Positions 5,299-25,664 of a DNA stretch of 64,000 nucleotides are shown piece after piece. Under the pieces are notes generated by a model, which had not been told where the DNA came from, ran no database searches, and worked only from the letters and a program-made list of their open reading frames with translations. Each line of letters begins with the position of its first letter. Position 1 is the first letter of the stretch. A program made the translations under genes and the position numbers. This DNA is from an uncultured cyanobacterium (GTDB lineage: Bacteria > Cyanobacteriota > Cyanobacteriia > Cyanobacteriales > Geitlerinemataceae): NCBI GenBank assembly GCA_937899645.1, contig CALCCD010000109.1:1-64000 (forward strand), read 5' to 3'.

Positions 5299-7935
5299 AT
5301 GACTGGCTCTCACCCCTCATCTGACCTGCCGCCCGATCGCGCATCTTCTGAGGATTCGCCGCGCGATGGCGGTGAGGCGCAGTTAGCGCAGCTACTCGAC
5401 CTTCTCGCGGTGTCTAAAGACGGCTCCGCTGCCGATCGTGCTGCCGCGAATTCGGGGCCGCAGCCCGGCCACCCGCCAGCGCCAGACCCGTCATTGCCAA
5501 ACGCGCCAGAACCCAGCCCACCCGCATCAAACCAGCCAGAACTTAGTACGCCAGAACCTAGCGCGCCAGAACCCGGTCAGTTGGAACCCAACCCGCCGAC
5601 GCCCGACCCGCCCGCGCTAGCTCGGGCTGAGCCCAGCCCCCCAGAGCCTGACAGTTCCAAGACACCGCGTCGCCCTTCCTCCCGCCTTCGAGTCAGCCGC
5701 CAATCGGGGCTTGGTGCGCCCGAGCAACGACCTTCCGCCGCCGAGACACCAGCCCCTCCACCGTCCGACAGCAGTTCCGACCGCGACATGGATAACCCGC
5801 TCGAAGAGCCCGCGCCGAGACGCACGCAACGTTTGCTCAGCCCCCACACCCGCAAGCAGCGCCATCAGTTCGCGGATCTACAGGGGACGATCGAGGGCGA
5901 GTCGCCGACGGTCGAACGACCGCTCTTTAGCGACGGCACGCTCAATCGCATCCTCGATCGCCTCAATACGCCGACCGTCTCCCAAGCAGAACTCGAGCGG
6001 GCGCTCCTGGACTTCGAGCGAGAGCGCTTCTCCGTGCTCGAATCGCGCATCCACGAACTCGAAGCTCAGCTCGAAATTTTCCACGACACCGACGAGCACG
6101 ATAAGCAAAGCAAGCTGATGCCGCTGGTGGACGAGATTCTCAGCAGCCTGACGCCGACGGCCCTGCGCCAGGAGACAATCCGCAGCCTAATTCCGGTGAT
6201 CGATCGCGTCATTGCCGAGCGCACCGCCCAGAACAGCGAAGCGATGAGTGCCGTGATCGCCGAACTGATGCCGCTGGCGATCGAGCGGCAAATTAAAGAA
6301 GATCCCCACACGATCGCCAACGCCGTCGCGCCAGAAATGGCGGAAGCAATTCGGCGTCAGATCGCCCTGAGGAAAGGCTCGCTCGGTGAGGCGATCGCCT
6401 CCGAGATGGGCGAAGCGATTCGCGGCCAGGTGGTGCTGGCGCGCGACGAGATGATCGATGCGCTCTACCCCGTTATCGGCAACACGATTACGAAATACAT
6501 GGCGGAGGAGATCCGCAACATCAATGCCAAGGTCGAGCAGAGCTTTAGCTTCGAGGGCATTACGCGCAAGATCCGCGCCAAAGTCCAGGGCGTCTCGGAA
6601 GCGGAGCTAATCCTGCGCGATTCGGCTTCGTTCAGTGTCAAGGCAGCGTTCCTAATTCACAAAGAGTCGGGCCTCGTGATCGCCGAAGCCCAACAGCCCA
6701 ACACGCAGCCCCTCGAATCCGACATGATCGGCGGGATGCTGACGGCAATTCGCAGCTTCGCCAACGACTGCATCGCCCAGGCCGACGCGGGCATCCAGGC
6801 CGAGCTGAACGAAATCGAATACGACACCTTCAAGCTCGTGCTAGAGGTGGCTGGCTACTGCTATGTGGCGCTGGTGGTGAAGGGCAACGTGACGAAGCCC
6901 TACGTCAATCACATGCGGCTCGTGATGGCTGGTGTCGTGCAGCAGTTCGGCCAACACATCAAGGATTTCGATGGCGATCCGAGCACGATTCCTGGCAAGG
7001 TTGCGACCGAGGTCGCCAGCCTCGTGCCCGACCCGCTCGAACTCGAGCGTGCAAACGCAAAGGATTCAAAGCGTCCACCGATGCTGCTGGTGATGCTGGT
7101 GCTGGCGTTACTAGGGGGACTCGGGCTGTGGGCACGGCAGTCGTGGCTGCGGCGCGTCGAGCGGACGGTGCTGCAAAAGATCGACGCGGTTCCCGAGCTG
7201 ACGGCCTATCAAATCGAGGTGGACGCGCGAGGCAACCGGCTGGAGCTGTCGGGCGATTTGCCGTATCAAGCGCTGCAAGATCGGTTGATCGAAGTCGTAA
7301 CGCCGATCGTGCCCGATCGCGAAATCGTCGATCGCACTCAGCTCGCCACCTTCGAGCCGGACGATGTGACGATCGCGCTGGAGGTCGATCGGTTGACGGC
7401 ACTGCTCAACCGCACGCTACCGGCCACGGTCGTAACGCAGTACGAAGACCGGCGCGTAACGCTGCGAGGCTGGGCGGAAGACGAGAACGTGCTAGAGGCG
7501 GTCGGCGAGGCGTTTGAGGCGATTTCTGGAATGCGATCGGTGTCGAGTGCGCTGCTAATCGACGCGCCGCCGGACAAGATTCGCCTCTACTTCGATTTGG
7601 GCGAGGTGGAACCGATCGCGATTGGCAAAACCAAGCTGGACTCGGTCGAGCGTTTCTTACGGAAGTTTCCCGATGTCAAGATCTCCGTGGTCGGTCACGC
7701 AGATCGCGTTGGCTCCGCCGAGCAAAACCAGATCCTGGCTGAGGCCCGCGCCGATCGCATCCGCGAACTGCTCGTCGAGCGGGGGATCGACGGCGATCGG
7801 CTAGCGACACGCGGCTCGCTGGAGCTACCGCCAGGAATCTCCGCGCAACAGCCTCTCGACCTCAGCCGCTGCGTCCGCTTCGAGATTACCAACGCTGCCG
7901 AAATCGGCCTATCCGAAGATCCCGAGCTGCCCTAA
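5299..7935 (+). CDS. large membrane-anchored protein with C-terminal OmpA domain
   Basis: The 878-residue product has four parts. Residues 1-150 are Pro/Ser/Glu-rich and low-complexity. About 170-590 is helical and charged, with repeated motifs such as EMAEAIRRQI and EMGEAIRGQV and a globular stretch near 430-560. One membrane segment (LLVMLVLALLGGLGLW) lies near residue 598. The outer part has BON-like segments and a C-terminal OmpA/MotB domain (about 760-860; DVKISVVGHADRVGSAEQNQ) of the kind that binds peptidoglycan. A long cytoplasmic part is therefore joined through the inner membrane to a wall-binding domain. Similar OmpA-family proteins occur in other cyanobacteria, without clear function. 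It appears to form an operon with the coiled-coil gene upstream. Confidence 0.85.
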   Translation: MTGSHPSSDLPPDRASSEDSPRDGGEAQLAQLLDLLAVSKDGSAADRAAANSGPQPGHPPAPDPSLPNAPEPSPPASNQPELSTPEPSAPEPGQLEPNPPTPDPPALARAEPSPPEPDSSKTPRRPSSRLRVSRQSGLGAPEQRPSAAETPAPPPSDSSSDRDMDNPLEEPAPRRTQRLLSPHTRKQRHQFADLQGTIEGESPTVERPLFSDGTLNRILDRLNTPTVSQAELERALLDFERERFSVLESRIHELEAQLEIFHDTDEHDKQSKLMPLVDEILSSLTPTALRQETIRSLIPVIDRVIAERTAQNSEAMSAVIAELMPLAIERQIKEDPHTIANAVAPEMAEAIRRQIALRKGSLGEAIASEMGEAIRGQVVLARDEMIDALYPVIGNTITKYMAEEIRNINAKVEQSFSFEGITRKIRAKVQGVSEAELILRDSASFSVKAAFLIHKESGLVIAEAQQPNTQPLESDMIGGMLTAIRSFANDCIAQADAGIQAELNEIEYDTFKLVLEVAGYCYVALVVKGNVTKPYVNHMRLVMAGVVQQFGQHIKDFDGDPSTIPGKVATEVASLVPDPLELERANAKDSKRPPMLLVMLVLALLGGLGLWARQSWLRRVERTVLQKIDAVPELTAYQIEVDARGNRLELSGDLPYQALQDRLIEVVTPIVPDREIVDRTQLATFEPDDVTIALEVDRLTALLNRTLPATVVTQYEDRRVTLRGWAEDENVLEAVGEAFEAISGMRSVSSALLIDAPPDKIRLYFDLGEVEPIAIGKTKLDSVERFLRKFPDVKISVVGHADRVGSAEQNQILAEARADRIRELLVERGIDGDRLATRGSLELPPGISAQQPLDLSRCVRFEITNAAEIGLSEDPELP

Positions 7936-8025
7936 TCGATCGCGCCCGCACTCCAGAAGTCAGGCTTTTCCAAAAGGTTCCGCCTTCTGGCCCCCCCGCA
8001 CCTGGCCCCCCGCAATCGTGCGGCT

Positions 8026-11000
8026 CTACGTGTCGCCGGGAGCCCCAAAGCCCCCACCCCCCGGCGTCTCAATTTCGATCGCCTCACCCGCCGCCAGCTC
8101 GATCGTCACCGTCCCCGGCAGCTCTTCGATCGCGCCATCCCGCGCCACTTTCAAATTCCGCCCCGGCCGCGCGGCTCCGCCGCCAGCGAGCCCCGCCGGA
8201 GCCACCCGCCGCCGCCCGGATAACACCGACACCGTCATCGCCTCGCGAAAACGCAGCCGCCGCACGATTCCGTTTCCGCCGCTCCAGCGACCCGCGCCAC
8301 CGCTGCCCACCCGAACCCCAAACGACTCCACCACCACCGGAAAGCGTAGCTCCAGCACCTCCGGGTCGGTGAGCCGCGAGTTGGTCATGTGGGTTTGCAC
8401 CGCGTCGGCTCCCGCGAAGCCCTTGCCTGCGAGACCCTTACCCGCGCCCGCGCCGCCGCAGATGGTTTCGTAATACTGGTGGCGATCGTTGCCAAACGTC
8501 AGATTGTTCATCGTGCCTTGGGAGTTGGCGAGGACGCTGATCGCGGCATACAGCGCATCAGCGATCGCCTGGGAAGTCTCCACATTTCCTGCCACAACGG
8601 CAGCGGGCGGCGCGGGGTCGAGCAGCGAGCCGGGTGGAATGACGATATCGAGCGGCTTCAGGCATCCAGCGTTGAGCGGTATATCGTCATCGACGAGCGT
8701 ACGAAACACGTACAGCACTGCCGCTTTGCAGACCGCCGCCGGGGCGTTGAAGTTGCTAGCGAGCTGAGCAGAGGTGCCGGAGAAGTCGATCGTGGCGCGG
8801 CGGGCTTGGCGATCGACCGAGATTTTGACGCGAATCCGATCGCCGCTATCGAGTTCGATGCAGGCTTCGCCATCCGAGAGCTTAGCGATCGCCCCGCGCA
8901 CGGCAGCTTCGGCATTGTCCTGGACGTGCTGCATATAGGCGCGCACCGTCGGCAGGCCGTAGTTAGCGACCATGCTGCGAAGCTCTGTGACGCCGCGATT
9001 GTTGGCGGCGATTTGGGCGCGGAGGTCGGCCAGGTTGCGATCGGGGTTGCGGGCGGGGTGCGTGTGGCTCGCGAGGCGATCGCGGATTTCGGCTTCGAGG
9101 AACTTGCCGCCGCGCACGAGCGGCACGTTATCGAAGAGGATGCCTTCGTCGGCGATCGTTTGGCTCTGCGGCGGCATTGAGCCGGGGGTGATGCCGCCGA
9201 TGTCGGCGTGGTGGCCGCGCGAGGCGACGTAGAAGAGTGGCTTTTCAGTTTTATCGTCAGTATCTGTCGAAAAGACGGGTGAAATCGCCGTGATATCGGG
9301 CAGGTGCGTGCCGCCGTTGTAGGGATTGTTGGAGAGGTAGACGTCGCCGGGTTGGAGTTCGCCGCCGCGATCGCGCACCAGCGATCGGACGCTCTCGCTC
9401 ATCGAGCCGAGGTGGACGGGAATATGAGGCGCGTTGGCGACGAGTTCGCCGTGGCGATCGAAGATGGCGCAGGAGAAGTCGAGGCGCTCTTTGATGTTGA
9501 CGGAGCTGCTGGTGTTTTGAAGCGTGATGCCCATCTGTTCGGCGATCGCGCGGAAGAGGTTGTTGAAGATTTCCAGGCGTACGGGATCGGGGCGGGTGGT
9601 GTGAAGGCTGAGCGGAGTCGTTCGCGTAGCGTCGGCCTCGCCGATAGCCTGGTTGGGGTCGTGGGTCGTCGAAATCTGGGCGAGATCGCTGGAAGTGGCC
9701 GCACTTCGACTCCGCTCAGTGCTCGAATTCTGGTTGCCTTTCTCCAAAATCAAATCGCCCCGATCGCCCAGAACTGCAGACCATCCCGGCTCGATGATAT
9801 TCGTCCCCGTCGGTTCGATAACGATCGCCGCGCCCGCCACGCGATCGCTCGCCCGCAAGTCCTCGCGGCGATAGACCGGGGCATCGTGCCAGCGTCCCGC
9901 CGCGTAGAGCCGTACTGTGGCGACGGGTTCGAGCCCGCCTTCACGCTTGACTGGGCTAATGACAGACTCGATCGCCTCGCCCGCCCGGATCGCCTCGACG
10001 ACGATCGCGTCCACCACCAGCGTCTTCTTCGGCGAGACGAAGCCGTAGCGCTGCCGGTGCTGCGCCTCAAACTCTGCCACCATCACCGCGCGATCGCCGA
10101 AGTCCACGGCCAGCGGCGAGTCGGTTCCTTGATATTTGAGCTGCACCTTGCGGACGAAATCGAGTGTTTCGCGTGCCCCGCCCAGCTCGGCCGCCGCTTC
10201 GGTTTCTAGCTCGTCGATCGGCGCGGCCAGGTCGAGAGCGTCGTCAAGGGTCGCCACGATCGAGCGCTCCCGCAGCGCCCGCACGTCCGCCAAGCCCATA
10301 CCGTAGGCTGACAGCACTCCGGCGTAGGGATGCAAAAAGACGCGATCGATGCCCAACGATTCGGCGATCGTGCAGGCGTGCTGACCACCCGCACCGCCGA
10401 AACAGCAGAGCGTATAGTCCGCCAGGTCGTAGCCGCGCTGGAGCGAGATTTTTTCGATCGCCTGCGCCATCTTCTCGATCGCGATCGCCAGGAAGCCCGC
10501 CGCGACTTCTTCCGCACCGCGATCGTCGCCGGTTTGCGCCGCTATCTCAGTGGCGAGAGATTGGAAGCGATCGCGCACCACCTCAGCATCCAACGGCGCG
10601 TCGCCAGCTTTGCCAAACACCGCCGGGAAAAACGGCGGCTGAATCCGACCCAACATCACATTGCAGTCCGTCACGGTCAGCGGCCCCCCGTTGCGATAAC
10701 AGGCAGGCCCCGGATGCGCCCCCGCCGACTCCGGCCCGACGCGGTAGCGCGACCCGTCGAAGCGCAGGACGCTGCCGCCACCCGCCGCCACGGTGTGAAT
10801 CGCCATCATCGGCACGCGCATCCGCACGCCCGCTACCTCCGTCTCGAATTCGCGCTCGTATTCCGCTGGCTTGGTCGGATCGCCCGCGTAGTGCGCCACG
10901 TCCGTGGAGGTTCCACCCATATCGAAGGTGACGATTTTGTGGAAACCGGCACGACGGCTGGTCTGGACTGCGCCGACGATGCCGCCCGCAGGCCCCGAGA

Positions 11001-18531: not shown

Positions 18532-19935
18532 ATGCGCTACGCTCTCGGGCTCGATTTCGGTACGTCCGGCGCGCGCGCGGTGGCGATCGACGCGGGCGGC
18601 AATATCCAGGCGTCGCAGTCCGTGCGCTTTGTGGCCCCCGATCGGCCTGCCGACTGGTTCGAGATCTGGCGCGCGGCGCTGGGCGAGCTGCTGGCGGGGC
18701 TGGGCGAGCTGCGCGAAAGTCTGGACGCGATCGCGATCGACGGCACGTCCTCGACGGTCTTTCTCGTCGATGCAGACGGTCATCCCCAGGGCGAGCCGCT
18801 GCTCTATAACGACGATCGCGCCCGCGCCTGCCTCGATCGCGTCGCCGCAATCGCGCCGGAACAGCACCCGACCCGCAGTGCTACCTCCAGCCTCGCGAAG
18901 TTTTTCTGGCTGCTGGGGGCGATCGCGCCGCTGGAGGAGCCAGACGCGCCCTACTTTTTTTGCCATCAGGCCGACTGGCTCGCCGCCCAGCTCCACGGAA
19001 TCCTCGGCGTCAGCGACTACAACAACGCCCTAAAACTCGGCTACGACCCCGCCGCTGAAGCCTACCCGGACTGGCTGCGAGTGGGGCTGGCGCGATCGTT
19101 GCCCGCCTGGGAAATTCGCGAATGCGGCTCGGCTGGGGCGATTTTGATCGGGCCGGACAAAGAGATCGACAGAGAGCGCGACAAACCGGCGCTCGTCTTG
19201 TCTCGCAAGCCAGAGATTATCTTGCCCCGTGTTCTCGCCCCCGGAGAGACGATCGCGCCCGTCACCTCCGCCGTCGCCCGCCGCTATGGCCTGCCGAAGA
19301 CCTGCCGCATTGTTGCCGGAACCACTGACAGCATCGCCTCCTTCCTCGCCAGTGGCCCGTCCCGTCCCGGAGCCGCCGTCACTGCCCTAGGCTCGACCCT
19401 AGCGCTCAAGCTGCTGAGTCGCACGCGCATCGACGACGCTCGCTACGGCATCTACAGCCACCGTCTCGGCGACCTGTGGCTGGCCGGGGGCGCGTCGAAC
19501 ACTGGCGGCGTGGTCTTGCGGCAGTTCTTTCGCGATCGCGAGCTAGCAGACCTCAGTGCCCAGCTGCTGTCCCGGCCCGCGACAAGCGAGCTGAACGATT
19601 TAGACTATTACCCGCTGCCCGCGACCGGCGAGCGCTTCCCCATTAACGACCCCGACCTCGCGCCGCGCCTGACGCCGCGCCCCGACGATCGCGCCGCCTT
19701 TTTGCACGGGCTGCTCGACGGGATGGCGCGCATTGAAGCGCAGGGCTACCGGCTTTTAAACGAGCTGGGGGCCGATCGCCTGGTGTCGGTCGAGACGACC
19801 GGAGGCGGCGCGCAAAACCGCGCTTGGCAGCGGCTGCGCTCGCACCGACTTGGCGTTGACGTACGAGCGGCGCAGATCGCCGACGCGGCCTACGGCACGG
19901 CACGACTCGCCCTCGGCGGCATCCCGCAGGTCTGA
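18532..19935 (+). CDS. FGGY-family carbohydrate kinase, probable D-ribulose kinase
   Basis: The 467-residue product has the two actin-like lobes of FGGY sugar kinases: LGLDFGTSGARAVAIDAGG (phosphate 1, residues 4-22), AIDGTSSTVFLVDADG, the linker LNDLDYYPLPATGER, VAGTTDSIASFLASG (phosphate 2), ALGSTLALKLLSR, and VETTGGGAQNRAWQRLR (adenosine). This is the pattern of the cyanobacterial/plant group once called xylulokinase-like and shown in Synechococcus elongatus to use D-ribulose; I infer the same substrate. Length is typical. It is the last of four same-strand genes from 15951 on; no clear terminator follows. Confidence 0.82.
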   Translation: MRYALGLDFGTSGARAVAIDAGGNIQASQSVRFVAPDRPADWFEIWRAALGELLAGLGELRESLDAIAIDGTSSTVFLVDADGHPQGEPLLYNDDRARACLDRVAAIAPEQHPTRSATSSLAKFFWLLGAIAPLEEPDAPYFFCHQADWLAAQLHGILGVSDYNNALKLGYDPAAEAYPDWLRVGLARSLPAWEIRECGSAGAILIGPDKEIDRERDKPALVLSRKPEIILPRVLAPGETIAPVTSAVARRYGLPKTCRIVAGTTDSIASFLASGPSRPGAAVTALGSTLALKLLSRTRIDDARYGIYSHRLGDLWLAGGASNTGGVVLRQFFRDRELADLSAQLLSRPATSELNDLDYYPLPATGERFPINDPDLAPRLTPRPDDRAAFLHGLLDGMARIEAQGYRLLNELGADRLVSVETTGGGAQNRAWQRLRSHRLGVDVRAAQIADAAYGTARLALGGIPQV

Positions 19936-20326
19936 TGGGGCCAGGCAAGAGCGCTCGATCGACGCGCCCGATCCTGACAGAAATCCCTGACAAAAACGTT
20001 CGAGAAAAAATGGGCGATTGCCAACAGCCCGGCCTCGTACGTACCCCCTCGGGATCGAGATTTACGTTGGCTCCAGACTGTTCGATACACAGTTCGGCGA
20101 CCTTATCGGTTGTCTTTGTTGTCATCCTGCTTGTCAGCAGATCTCCGCAGAAAGAGAAGACAAGAACGAGATCGATCGTGCGGGCAGCTGTCTTTTGACG
20201 AAAGCTAAGATCGGTAAATTCGCATTTCCCTAGGCAGGAATACGGATATTTTTTGCTATCTTCGACCTGAAATTTTTAAAACTGTATTACGACTCGCTGC
20301 CATCCCCCAGAAATGGGAAGGACGAG
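19936..20326. other. intergenic stretch without a recognisable gene
   Basis: Only short frames are present, none with a ribosome site or protein-like composition. The DNA becomes AT-richer towards the two miniature elements that follow. The segment 20435-20616 between those elements is also without a gene. Confidence 0.6.
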
Positions 20327-20434
20327 TTAATACCAAGCCTGGAAAGTAAAACTACAGATGGGTGACCTAGATTACCAGCCAAGCTTCAGTCCTAGACTTA
20401 CCATCTGTAGCTAGACTTTGAGTGATTGGTATAA
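20327..20434. mobile_element. 108-bp palindromic miniature element
   Basis: The ends are imperfect inverted repeats of about 35 bp: TTAATACCAA...AAGT...CTACAGATGG on the left and, reading inward from the right, TTATACCAA...AAAGT...CTACAGATGG. No coding capacity. The TTATACCAA ends next to TA resemble non-autonomous elements of the IS630/Tc1 type, but no parent element is in the window. Confidence 0.65.
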
Positions 20435-20626
20435 AATCGTCTCGACAAATGCCGGTGAAGATACCTTGAAAAAGGTGAATTTTTTTTAACGCTGGCGTCT
20501 GAATCCCTAAATGGCGAGTCGCGCGTTTTGGCTCGCTCGACGCTCGCTCGAATCGCAATTTTTAGGCGATTTCTTGTTGTTGTCTTTGCATCGGCCTCCG
20601 TTTTTGCTTCCGCCTTGTTAGCCCAT

Positions 20627-20913
20627 CAGGGTGAACGCATCTAATTTCGTATCTTTCCATACAGAAAAATTGTCCGAAAGCCAAAACAAATGCCTCCAAA
20701 CAACAAATTGTGGAGTAATTCGGCATCTCTTGCGCCACTCGGCTTAACAAAGAGCTTGCTTTTTAGATTTTCTCCACCTGCTGAGGCGATCGGAACAGGA
20801 TCTACAGAGTGTCGATGGCTAAATGGGGTGGGAAAGCGGGTGAACTCATCGAATCTCAAGGATGAAGATATTTTTCTGTATAGTGGCTAACTAAATTAGA
20901 TGCGTTTACCCTG
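20627..20913. mobile_element. 287-bp non-autonomous element with 10-bp target duplication
   Basis: The left end CAGGGTGAACGCATCTAATTT and the inverted right end (CAGGGTAAACGCATCTAATTT) match at 20 of 21 positions. GTTAGCCCAT flanks both sides (20617-20626 and 20914-20923). CAGGG ends with an 8-10-bp duplication suggest the ISAs1 group, by memory of that family. The inside is AT-rich and codes for no recognisable transposase. The right copy of the duplication contains the first two bases (AT) of the ATG of the hybrid kinase gene. Confidence 0.82.
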
Positions 20914-20921
20914 GTTAGCCC

Positions 20922-23900
20922 ATGCCCGTTTCTTCTGCTTTCGCCGGAGCGTGTGCGATCGTCCGCGATCCGCTGCTTCTGCCAGCCAGTACCAGTCTCC
21001 GCTGCGCGATCGAGCGAGTTCGGACGCTGCGCGCTGCGCCCGTCGAAAGTGGCCCCCGTCCCGCTGAGTTCCCGCGCCAGTTTCACCAGCAGCAGCGCGC
21101 GCGCGCCATTGTCGTGACGGACGGCGATCGCGCGATCGCCGTCGTCACCGAAGCCTCTCTTCTCGATGCGGCGCTCGACTCTCCGGAGGTCGTTCTCGGC
21201 GAGCTGTGTGCGCCCGAGCCGCTGGTTTTCGAGATCGATGCGATCGCAGAGCTGACCGACCTGAACGAAACTTTTCAGGCGCTGACGTCTGCGGGGGGCT
21301 TTGCGATCGTCACGGAGGGCGATCGCCCGGTCGGTTTGCTGTCGGAGGCCAGCCTGCTCGATGCGATGCGGCATCTCGAAGCGTCCCGATGGCGGCAGCG
21401 CCTCGCCACGACGATCGCGCCGGGAGCCCAGGCGTGGCAGGCGAGTGAAGAGCGCTACCGGGCGCTGCTCGATGCCCGCGAGGCCGTGCTGGTGGTCGAT
21501 CTCGACGGCTATGCGATCGACGCTAACCGCTCGGCGGAGGTGTTGTTCGGTTACGGGCGCGAGGCGCTGCTCGGCCTGCACCACACCGAGCTTTACCCGC
21601 CGGAAGAGCGCCCAGCTATGGCAGAGCGCTTCGAGCGCCTGCTGGCGGGCCTGGTCGGCGATGCGCCGATCGCCCAGCAGACCCGCTGCCGCGACGGGCG
21701 TATCGAGTACGTCGAGATTTGCGAAAAGGCGCTCGAGATCGACGGGACGACGCTCGTGCAATTGGTCTTCTACGACGTGACGGAGCGCTACTGGCAGGAG
21801 AACACGCTGCGGCAGGTTTTCGAGGCGACCTCTTCGAGCATCGGCCAGTCGTTTTTCGAGGCACTGGTGGCGGCGTTGGCATCGGCGCTGGCGGTCGATA
21901 GCGTCTTCTTGATGGAGGCTGACAGCAACACGACGATGCGGCTGGTGGCGGGGTGGTCGCGCGGCCAGTCGCAAGTGCGCGGCGAGACGTTCGCGATCGC
22001 GCACACGCCTTGCGGGCGAGTTCGGCAAGTCGGGAGCTTTGTCCGCGAGCGGGGCGTGCGCGCGGCTTTTTCCGGGCAGCTCGTTGCCGACCTGGAGATC
22101 GAGAGCTACGTGGGGGTCGCGTTCTACGACGAAGGCGGTCAAATTTGCGGGCATCTGTGCGTTTTCGAGCGCCGACCCCTGCCCAATACCGAACAGATCC
22201 GCTCGATTTTGAACGTATTCGCCGCGCGCGCCGGGGCCGAACTCGAACGCCAGCGCGCCCAGGAAATGCTGGCGCTGCTAAATCGCAAACTCGAAGCCCA
22301 GGTGGTGGAGCGCACTGCTGAGCTACAGGCACGTCAGGACTTTTTGCAAACCGTAATCGACCTGGAGCTGTTTCCGCTGGCGATCTCCTGGAAAGACAGC
22401 AACTCGGTTTACCTCGGCTGCAACCGCAAGTTCGCTGAAGATGCGGGGCTCGACTCGATCGAAGAAATCGTCGGCAAAACCGATGCCGAGCTGCCCTGGG
22501 GCTCCCAAGCGGAAACTTACCGTCGCGCCGATCGCCAGACGATCGCCTCAAATAAGCCGAAGCTGGGCTCGATCGAGACGTTCGTCCGTGCTGATGGCCA
22601 TTCACCTTGGATCGAGATAAGCAAGGTGCCGCTGCACGATCTCGACGGCAACGCGATCGGCATTCTGGTCATGTATCGCGACATCACGGCCCAAAGACAG
22701 GCCGAAGCGGAGCGCCAGCAGCTCGTGACCCGACTCGACGTGGCCGTGAAGTCAGCGGGCCTGGGGATTTGGGACTGGGATCTCGCCAACGACGAGCTGG
22801 TCTGGGACGAGCGCATGTACGCCATCTACGGCCTCGAGCCTCGCGAGGGCTGCAACACCTGCGAGCAGTGGAAGCGCTGTCTGCACCCCAGTGATGTGGC
22901 GATGGCAACGGACTATCTCGACTACATCTTGCAAACCAACGAAGACTACAAGCTGGTGTTTCGCATCATTCGCCCGGATGGCGAGGTTCGCGAGATCGAC
23001 GCGCGCGCGATCGTCCAGCGCGACGCCAACGGTAAGCCGCTACGCATGACCGGCGTTAACGTTGATATCACCGAGCGCCGAGAAACCGATCGCCTGCTCG
23101 AGCGCCAGCTCGCCACCATCGAAGCTGCCGCCGAAGGTCTCGCTATCGTTCGGGGCCAGATTCTTACATATGTCAACTCCGCTTTTGCCCGGATGTTCGG
23201 CCATCGCAGCGCTGCGTCCCTGATCGGCCAAAGCTGGCAGCCGCTCTACGCCGAAGAGACGATCGAAGTCCTGCGCCAGCCAGTCCTCGCCTCGCTGCAA
23301 CAGTCCGGAACCTGGAAGGGCGAGACGATCGCCCGTCGGAGCGACGGCACGAATTTTAGCGAAGAACTGTCGTTGACCCGAGCCGAAGACGGCAGCATTA
23401 TCTGCGTGTGCCGCGATATTTCCGAGCGCAAGCAGGCCGAGGCCGCCCTCCAGCAGAGCGAGGCGCGCTGGAAGTTTGCCTTGGAGGGTGCGGGCGATGG
23501 CGTTTGGGACTGGAACCTCAAAGCCGATCGCATTTTCTTTTCGCACCAGTGGAAAAGCACGCTGGGCTATGACGACGGGGAAATCGGCGATCGCCCCCAC
23601 GAGTGGACGAGCCGCATCCACCCCGACGATCGTCCGCACTGCCAGGCGGCGCTGACGGCTCACTTCAACGGCGAAATGTCGGTTTACACCAGCGAATACC
23701 GCATCCGCTGCAAGGACGGCCAGTACAAGTGGGTGCTCGATCGCGGGCAGGCGATCGAACGGCAGGCCAACGGACGCCCGCTGCGGACGATCGGCTTGCA
23801 GTCGGATATCACCGCCCGTAAGTTGGCCGAGCAGCAACTGCGCGACTCGAAAGAATCCGCCGAGCTGGCCGATCGCGCCAAAAGCAACTTCCTGGCGCTG

Positions 23901-25664
23901 ATGAGCCACGAACTGCGCACTCCGCTCAACGGCATGCTCGGGCTGGCGACCTTGCTCTCCCAAACGAACCTCAAGCCCCAGCAGCACACCTACGTCAACA
24001 CCCTGCGCGACACCGCCGCCTCGCTGTCCCAGATCGTCAACGACATTCTCGACTTTTCCAAGCTCCAGGCTGACAAGCTCCAGCTCGACACTATCGAGTT
24101 CGACCCGCGCGAAACGATCGCCCGCCTGGAGGCACTGCTCGTCCCCAAAGCCGAAGAAAAACAGCTCGACCTGTGCTTCGAGACCGAAGCCGCCCTGCCG
24201 TCCATGCTGGCTGGCGATCCGCTGCGTCTCAGTCAGGTGCTGCTCAACCTAATCGGCAACGCGATTAAGTTCACCGAGTCCGGCAGCATCACCGTCGCGA
24301 TCGCCGAGCGCACCCGAGACGCCGAGCGCATCCGGCTGAACTTTTCCGTCTGCGATACGGGCATCGGCCTCAGCGAGCGGCAGATACAATCGCTCTTCGA
24401 CCCCTTCACCCAAGTCGATCCGTCCCCCAGTCGTCGCTACGGCGGCACGGGCCTGGGGCTGACGATCTGCCAGCGGCTCATCGAGTCGATGGGCGGCAAA
24501 ATTTCCGTCCGCAGCGAAGTCGGTCGGGGCAGTACCTTCGACTTCGAGCTGCCTTTTGCCTATCGTGCGGCGAGTGTCGTCAAGCTCGGGCCGCATCCGG
24601 ATCGCGCGGACGATCGCTCTGCCCCCGTTGAAGTGGCCTCCTCCGACAGCGGCGGCCCCCGCGATACGAACGACCTAGCCGATACCAGCTTGCTGAAAGG
24701 CGCGTCCGTTCTGCTCGTTGAAGACAACGAGGTCAACCAGCTCATCGCCAGGCAGATCCTCCGCCAGCTCGGCATGCAGGTGTCCGTCGCCGCCGACGGA
24801 CGCAAGGCGATCGCCCAGGCGGTCAACCAGCCCTTCGACGCGATCTTGATGGACGTGCAGATGCCCGGACTCGACGGCCACGAGACCACTCGCCGCCTCC
24901 GCCGCCTAGCGCAGCTCGGGACGGACTCGACGCGACACCTGGCTCATATCCCGATCGTGGCAATGACGGCCCACGCCTTCGAGTCGGATAAGGCGCGCAG
25001 CCTCGAGTCGGGAATGAACGATCATTTAACGAAGCCGATCGACACGCGCACGCTGGCCACGACTCTGGCCTACTGGCTCGATCGCAACGATCCGGCGACC
25101 TCGCCCGTCGCGCTCCCCGTCGCCGACCTCGCCTTGGGCGTCCGGGAGTCGCGCCGCGAGTTGCACCGAGAGCTTCAAAGCGACCCCGCCATGCCGCCGA
25201 CCCGATCGCCCGAAAGCGCTACCGCAAAGACCCCCAACAGCACTCCCAAACCCCTCGTCGCAGGTCGCAACAGTCCGCCCGCCGCGCCTCCTGCCTCGCT
25301 TCCCGGCCTCGATCTCGAGCAGGGGCTAGAGCGCATCAGCCACGATACGGAGCTGTACGCCGAGCTGCTGGAGATGTTTTCGGAAATCTATACACCCTTC
25401 CACCGAACCCTAAACGAGGCGGTCGATCGCGGCGATCGCGACGAGATTATCCATCTGCTGCACACCCTCAAAGGCTCGGCGGGCAACATTGCCGCCACCT
25501 CGCTCCGCCACGGAGCCGCTCGCATCGTCGATCGGCTGCGCCAGGAAGAGAAAAACCAGCCCGTCAAAATCGACCCGGTGGAAGTTTCGTCGCTGCTGCA
25601 CTGCCTCGATCGCGTCCTCGAAAGCATCGATCGCTACGCCCACGATTTCGTCGGAGTTTCCTGA
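20922..25664 (+). CDS. hybrid sensor histidine kinase (CBS, PAS, GAF, HisKA, REC, HPt)
   Basis: The 1580-residue protein has no membrane segment and is probably cytoplasmic. Order: CBS pair (about 5-155), PAS (175-290), GAF (295-445), four more PAS/PAC blocks (470-975), HisKA with MSHELRTPLNG (His996), HATPase with LNLIGNAIKFTESG, DTGIGLS and GTGLGLTIC, receiver LLVEDNEVNQLIA to ILMDVQMPG (Asp1311), and HPt LLHTLKGSAGN (His1514). Phosphate can thus pass His-Asp-His to an unseen regulator. Input from nucleotides (CBS) and small ligands (GAF, PAS) is likely. A stop codon lies two codons upstream of ATG 20922, so this start is secure, yet the upstream DNA belongs to an inserted element and no ribosome site is seen. 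No response regulator gene is adjacent. Confidence 0.95.
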   Translation: MPVSSAFAGACAIVRDPLLLPASTSLRCAIERVRTLRAAPVESGPRPAEFPRQFHQQQRARAIVVTDGDRAIAVVTEASLLDAALDSPEVVLGELCAPEPLVFEIDAIAELTDLNETFQALTSAGGFAIVTEGDRPVGLLSEASLLDAMRHLEASRWRQRLATTIAPGAQAWQASEERYRALLDAREAVLVVDLDGYAIDANRSAEVLFGYGREALLGLHHTELYPPEERPAMAERFERLLAGLVGDAPIAQQTRCRDGRIEYVEICEKALEIDGTTLVQLVFYDVTERYWQENTLRQVFEATSSSIGQSFFEALVAALASALAVDSVFLMEADSNTTMRLVAGWSRGQSQVRGETFAIAHTPCGRVRQVGSFVRERGVRAAFSGQLVADLEIESYVGVAFYDEGGQICGHLCVFERRPLPNTEQIRSILNVFAARAGAELERQRAQEMLALLNRKLEAQVVERTAELQARQDFLQTVIDLELFPLAISWKDSNSVYLGCNRKFAEDAGLDSIEEIVGKTDAELPWGSQAETYRRADRQTIASNKPKLGSIETFVRADGHSPWIEISKVPLHDLDGNAIGILVMYRDITAQRQAEAERQQLVTRLDVAVKSAGLGIWDWDLANDELVWDERMYAIYGLEPREGCNTCEQWKRCLHPSDVAMATDYLDYILQTNEDYKLVFRIIRPDGEVREIDARAIVQRDANGKPLRMTGVNVDITERRETDRLLERQLATIEAAAEGLAIVRGQILTYVNSAFARMFGHRSAASLIGQSWQPLYAEETIEVLRQPVLASLQQSGTWKGETIARRSDGTNFSEELSLTRAEDGSIICVCRDISERKQAEAALQQSEARWKFALEGAGDGVWDWNLKADRIFFSHQWKSTLGYDDGEIGDRPHEWTSRIHPDDRPHCQAALTAHFNGEMSVYTSEYRIRCKDGQYKWVLDRGQAIERQANGRPLRTIGLQSDITARKLAEQQLRDSKESAELADRAKSNFLALMSHELRTPLNGMLGLATLLSQTNLKPQQHTYVNTLRDTAASLSQIVNDILDFSKLQADKLQLDTIEFDPRETIARLEALLVPKAEEKQLDLCFETEAALPSMLAGDPLRLSQVLLNLIGNAIKFTESGSITVAIAERTRDAERIRLNFSVCDTGIGLSERQIQSLFDPFTQVDPSPSRRYGGTGLGLTICQRLIESMGGKISVRSEVGRGSTFDFELPFAYRAASVVKLGPHPDRADDRSAPVEVASSDSGGPRDTNDLADTSLLKGASVLLVEDNEVNQLIARQILRQLGMQVSVAADGRKAIAQAVNQPFDAILMDVQMPGLDGHETTRRLRRLAQLGTDSTRHLAHIPIVAMTAHAFESDKARSLESGMNDHLTKPIDTRTLATTLAYWLDRNDPATSPVALPVADLALGVRESRRELHRELQSDPAMPPTRSPESATAKTPNSTPKPLVAGRNSPPAAPPASLPGLDLEQGLERISHDTELYAELLEMFSEIYTPFHRTLNEAVDRGDRDEIIHLLHTLKGSAGNIAATSLRHGAARIVDRLRQEEKNQPVKIDPVEVSSLLHCLDRVLESIDRYAHDFVGVS

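Follow-up and report, generated by a model that had tools for sequence, protein, structure and literature searches.

An ISAs1-Type MITE at the Start Codon of a Hybrid Histidine Kinase Gene in a Cyanobacterium

MITEs and Their Partner IS Elements

Elements of the ISAs1 family generate target-site duplications (TSDs) of about 8–10 bp. Nezha, cited in PMC10969869, is reportedly another short cyanobacterial MITE. An example of a cyanobacterial ISAs1-family IS is ISAsp2, which is listed in a report on Anabaena sp. 90 (PMC3542288). That report also describes MITEs which, like the present element, are short and cyanobacterial and in some cases interrupt genes. They were called type II, with no IS having the same ends (PMC3542288), whereas the ends of the MITE studied here recur in a resident IS.

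A second system for comparison is MITEAba12 from Acinetobacter. A coresident IS with matching terminal inverted repeats (TIRs) mobilises this element, and the TSD has a fixed length (PMC6382973). The present MITE is similar in both respects, although here mobilisation is inferred. Both elements also carry stop codons that are read inward and a start codon near an outer end, which can supply a neighbouring gene with its first four residues. These are MQQS in MITEAba12 (PMC6382973) and MRLP in one copy of the present MITE, on contig C101. MITEAba12 differs in having another IS as its partner, a 9-bp TSD, and a length of 111–114 bp. Moreover, promoters were predicted and a transcript was observed for MITEAba12 (PMC6382973), whereas no sigma-70-like promoter was found in the MITE described here.

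The Element and Its Target Site

The window (the whole stretch of DNA analyzed, 64,000 nucleotides) contains a 287-bp element on the plus strand at positions 20627–20913. Sequence reading and a repeat search placed it between two exactly matching 10-bp copies of GTTAGCCCAT, the left TSD at 20617–20626 and the right TSD at 20914–20923, neither of which has a strand. The span of 20617–20923 originally predicted for duplication and element together was exact. The TIRs are imperfect, with 44-nt arms that are 80% complementary in the repeat search. The left arm (20627–20670, plus strand) begins with CAGGGTGAACGCATCTAA, and the right arm (20870–20913, minus strand), when read inward, begins with CAGGGTAAACGCATCTAA, which is the sequence at the ends of six ISAs1 copies in the same genome. 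On the plus strand the element terminates in TTAGATGCGTTTACCCTG and is followed by the right copy of GTTAGCCCAT and then by a G. The right TSD contributes its final two bases, A and T, to the ATG of a kinase gene. When the flanks were joined in silico they read ...CCGCCTTGTTAGCCCATGCCC, with the kinase ATG unchanged. Regeneration of this start codon by the right TSD, with an unaltered protein, had been predicted and is borne out. The element is short and lacks a transposase gene, with no contained ORF of at least 90 aa. Matches to Rfam within 20000–21500 (Gl_U6, E 0.055; mir-283, E 0.39) fell far below the gathering scores and were rejected as chance. A tRNA scan of the window found none.

Copies in the Genome and the Resident ISAs1 Element

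A search of the element's own genome (134 contigs, 4.55 Mb, with the window on contig C109) revealed five copies of the MITE, each 100% identical over 287/287 bp and each flanked by a different, exact 10-bp duplication. The proposal of a genuine transposition with a 10-bp TSD is right. Because none of the copies has diverged from the others, the insertion is recent, and the 287-bp element is a recent, non-autonomous, IS-derived MITE.

A genome search with up to two mismatches allowed gave 22 occurrences of the terminal 18-mer and none of the reversed control. The five MITE copies account for ten of these occurrences, one at each end. The remaining 12 are close to contig ends and run into two further sequences, six into each; they mark the two termini, left and right, of a longer IS at whose copies the assembly broke. 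Using a script, each of the six left ends was paired with one of the six right ends by an exact 10-bp TSD (L012/L026, L013/L021, L014/L018, L019/L017, L020/L016, and L025/L023). The TSD of the partner IS is therefore 10 bp in 6/6 paired copies, within the range of the ISAs1 family. As a side observation on the draft assembly, 12 of its contig ends can be joined as six pairs through these duplications.

The longest of the IS ends (L018, on contig C73) is a right end which extends 567 bp into the IS and encodes the C-terminal 170 aa of a transposase. This fragment matches the ISAs1-family model NF033564 of NCBIfam with 140.8 bits (cut-off 70), and its match to Pfam DDE_Tnp_1 is weak. The N-terminal half of the transposase was not found in the assembled own-genome contigs inspected, where the IS copies break the assembly. 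The outer bases are common to the MITE and the six IS copies at 18/18 positions of the right end and 17/18 of the left. Since the outer 18 bp and the 10-bp TSD are shared by both, the MITE was likely moved in trans by the resident ISAs1 transposase, as judged from these sequence features.

Distribution in Relatives and in the Order

The MITE was found in one of the 39 genomes examined, the one being its own. The original prediction had allowed for an element carried by all relatives; 0/38 of the nearest relatives have it. The ends are distributed more widely. Of 388 genomes from the order, 56, own genome included, contain exact matches to the 18-mer written with R at position 7, and reversed-pattern controls gave zero. 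Among 29 foreign loci with the 18-mer, nine contained two facing ends inside 2.5 kb, and an exact 10-bp duplication was found at six of these and at none of the remaining three. One of the six elements (L135) is a complete IS of 1471 bp encoding a 376-aa ISAs1 transposase (413 bits), which has the same end as the MITE when one mismatch is allowed and a 10-bp TSD. The other five are MITE-like, with lengths of 125–269 bp. Transposase matches were detected at only 5/29 foreign loci, but these loci include no more than about 1.5 kb of flanking sequence.

The MITE differs from the complete IS in that it has no transposase and in that its interior is unmatched beyond the outer ends of about 20 bp. 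In comparison to the foreign elements as a group, its interior also gave no match of note beyond the ends. An exact 27-base left-end pattern had no match across a collection of genome contigs, and the paired-end pattern had none in viral contigs. Scanning the genome contigs for the ISAs1 transposase yielded 25 relatives at 31–58% identity, none of them close; other cyanobacteria are among the nearest named ones. No publication on this MITE was found in the open-licence literature searched.

The Kinase and Its Start Codon

The gene that begins at the right TSD (20922–25664, plus strand) encodes an intact hybrid histidine kinase of 1580 aa with orthologues in two congeners (G001 and G002). Domain searches revealed PAS repeats, GAF, HisKA, HATPase_c, REC, and Hpt domains, as well as a weak CBS region near the N-terminus whose match is sub-threshold. 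An in-frame TAG lies inside the TSD two codons upstream of the ATG (20922–20924), so no longer reading of the kinase is possible either before or after the insertion. The next in-frame start is a GTG at codon 65. The best congeneric homologues, of 1509 aa in G001 and split into two ORFs in G002, align from residue 12 of the window kinase and start near the same point. Given the upstream TAG, the distance to the next start, and the nearby beginning of the orthologues, the ATG at 20922 is likely the true kinase start before and after insertion.

Consequences for the Kinase Leader

The most probable explanation, to which a probability of about 0.6 is assigned, is that an ISAs1-type MITE was recently inserted at the kinase start by means of the resident ISAs1 transposase, and that the protein stayed the same while its translation was lowered. 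The ISAs1 transposase, encoded elsewhere in the genome, would recognize the terminal 18 bp common to MITE and IS and would make a target cut staggered by 10 bp across the kinase start codon. Repair would then duplicate these 10 bp, which leaves the ATG, with the 8 nt that precede it, on the kinase side. In a read-through mRNA, kinase translation would be reduced by an inverted-repeat stem that stops 9 nt short of the AUG and by competition from an out-of-frame AUG located 22 nt upstream of it, unless transcription begins within the final ~30 bp of the MITE.

In the present sequence 8 nt upstream of the kinase ATG are kept by the duplication and everything further upstream is element. The prediction that the native promoter and ribosome site now lie 287 bp away is only partly right in view of these 8 nt. 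In addition, no recognizable Shine-Dalgarno site was displaced and no native promoter could be identified. The anti-Shine-Dalgarno duplex was calculated at +1.0 kcal/mol for the native leader and −2.7 kcal/mol for the inserted leader, with no Shine-Dalgarno pairing in either. For this reason no ribosome site appears to have been lost, and the slightly better value after insertion speaks against a loss of translation. Of six neighboring genes compared, good pairing was calculated for two (−7.1 and −3.6) and for none of the other four.

The case for reduced translation comes from RNA structure. As RNA the element folds strongly (−93.6 kcal/mol, z −5.0), and in a read-through mRNA its inverted-repeat stem is predicted to close 9 nt before the AUG. 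Opening the region from −20 to +15 around the AUG was calculated to cost 28.0 kcal/mol with the full element, compared to about 6–7.5 kcal/mol for the native leader (7.5 at equal length), in a calculation that ignores co-transcriptional folding and ribosomes. For 100 dinucleotide shuffles of the element the cost was 13.2 ± 3.0 kcal/mol and none reached 28.0. An ATG in the right TIR, 22 nt upstream of the kinase ATG and in another frame, opens a 55-codon ORF which overlaps the kinase start (20900–21067, plus strand). On the basis of the stem upstream of the AUG and this out-of-frame AUG, reduced kinase translation from a read-through mRNA is the most likely predicted effect, reasoning from transcript structure to protein level. 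Of the two outcomes originally proposed, silencing of the kinase or expression driven by the element, the first is thus favored through RNA structure and the upstream ATG, although unproven.

The second of these outcomes, in which the kinase is transcribed from an outward promoter in the element, much as the neighbors of some Correia and MITEAba12 elements are, is rather unlikely. Promoters in MITEs are the subject of a review (PMC10969869) and have been shown for MITEAba12 (PMC6382973). In the present MITE the hexamer TATAGT at 20879–20884, about 37 bp from the ATG, could serve as a lone −10 element, but it has no good −35 partner (by eye, at most 2/6 matches). Across 19900–21100, a scan for promoters of the sigma-70 type only, at 9/12 matches, yielded 0 sites compared to 0.8 ± 0.9 in shuffles. 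This leaves the idea of a kinase driven by the element unsupported and sets the MITE apart from the promoter-carrying class represented by Correia and MITEAba12, in which an outward sigma-70-like promoter is found. Leaders starting at 20890 or 20895 would nevertheless be as open as the native one (6.3 and 6.2 kcal/mol), and the AUG would be accessible in a transcript that begins at or beyond 20890. A promoter in the right tip of the element would therefore rescue expression, which counts against the translation-loss explanation.

An insertion without effect is about as improbable as an outward promoter. The kinase could be little expressed, or equally expressed with its leader lengthened by 297 nt (287 plus the second 10-bp TSD). 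Its ORF is intact with all domains present and no Shine-Dalgarno site was lost, as would be expected for a neutral event. However, the identical copies indicate a recent insertion, so decay would not show yet. Moreover, the energy for opening the start region rises about fourfold, far beyond the shuffled elements, and a new competing out-of-frame ATG is present. A chance resemblance of the 10-bp match and inverted ends, with no insertion at all, had been named in the original prediction as a possible objection and is refuted by the genome search: the five copies are identical, each has an exact TSD of its own, and their ends recur in the IS.

Reduced translation after a recent ISAs1-type insertion is therefore retained as the preferred explanation. 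A staggered transposon cut across a start codon kept the coding sequence exactly and replaced all but 8 nt of the leader, which makes this locus a clean natural case isolating the effect of a MITE on initiation, and one in which a MITE with an order-wide terminal sequence is tied to ISAs1. The biological stake is modest, since a single sensor kinase in a single cyanobacterium is concerned, and the insertion, though well placed, is of an ordinary kind.

Other Insertions and a Speculative Translation Cassette

Three of the other four copies lie within genes. The copy on C101 (L059, element 7821–8107) splits a REC/hybrid histidine kinase gene. Its upstream half ends ...SRAL-QGERI-stop inside the TIR, and the other TIR supplies the downstream half, of 730 aa with two REC domains, GAF, HisKA, and HATPase_c, with an ATG in frame (M-R-L-P-W...). 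The copy on C48 (L061, element 8035–8321) interrupts a DUF427 gene close to the 3′ end of that gene, the copy on C18 (L062, element 8468–8754) interrupts a SUFU-domain gene, and the copy on C67 sits between ORFs. Phase analysis showed that two of the three frames entering the MITE from either end are closed by a stop within 6 codons, and that outward reading of the right end provides a start in one frame only (ATG-CGT-TTA-CCC-TG). Given these inward stops and the outward ATG, an insertion can end one protein and start another, or set up a competing start. The in-frame restart at the C101 copy and the competing out-of-frame start at the window kinase are the two cases found. A broader suggestion, in which the ends of the MITE/IS family work as a compact cassette for translation and sensor kinases of cyanobacteria might in this way be re-cut or adjusted at the translational level, is speculative and probably wrong. 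By analogy with MITEAba12, which does the same, donation of a start codon by MITE ends is not new in kind.

Surroundings of the Kinase Gene

In G001 and G002 the kinase orthologues lack the element and adjoin cdsA, as in the window; that of G001 also adjoins ychF. The DNA upstream of these orthologues does not align with the window, the best matches being of 10–25 bp with E 0.33 or worse. In the window the upstream neighbor is an FGGY-family carbohydrate kinase gene (18532–19935, plus strand), whereas in both congeners it is a divergent gene which we take to be hemJ-like. In the element's own genome hemJ lies on C89 (L138) and adjoins a presumed leuD, both names being given by sequence resemblance, while in G002 (L058, L139) leuD adjoins the FGGY gene. 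A single inversion with its ends at FGGY/kinase and leuD/hemJ would explain these gene orders and would place one end in the spacer upstream of the kinase. It may have run in either direction, since in 4/4 family-level relatives leuD was not found within the FGGY flank examined. Such a rearrangement upstream of the kinase would be a likely reason why the congeners show no aligned empty site.

The same spacer contains a second short palindromic repeat at 20328–20435, which has ends ATACCAA and TTGGTAT and a length of about 105 bp. Partial matches to it occur in the genome, three of them within 60 bases of a contig end, along with five other near-full copies at 90–100% identity and one at about 73%. 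This repeat looks like another MITE.
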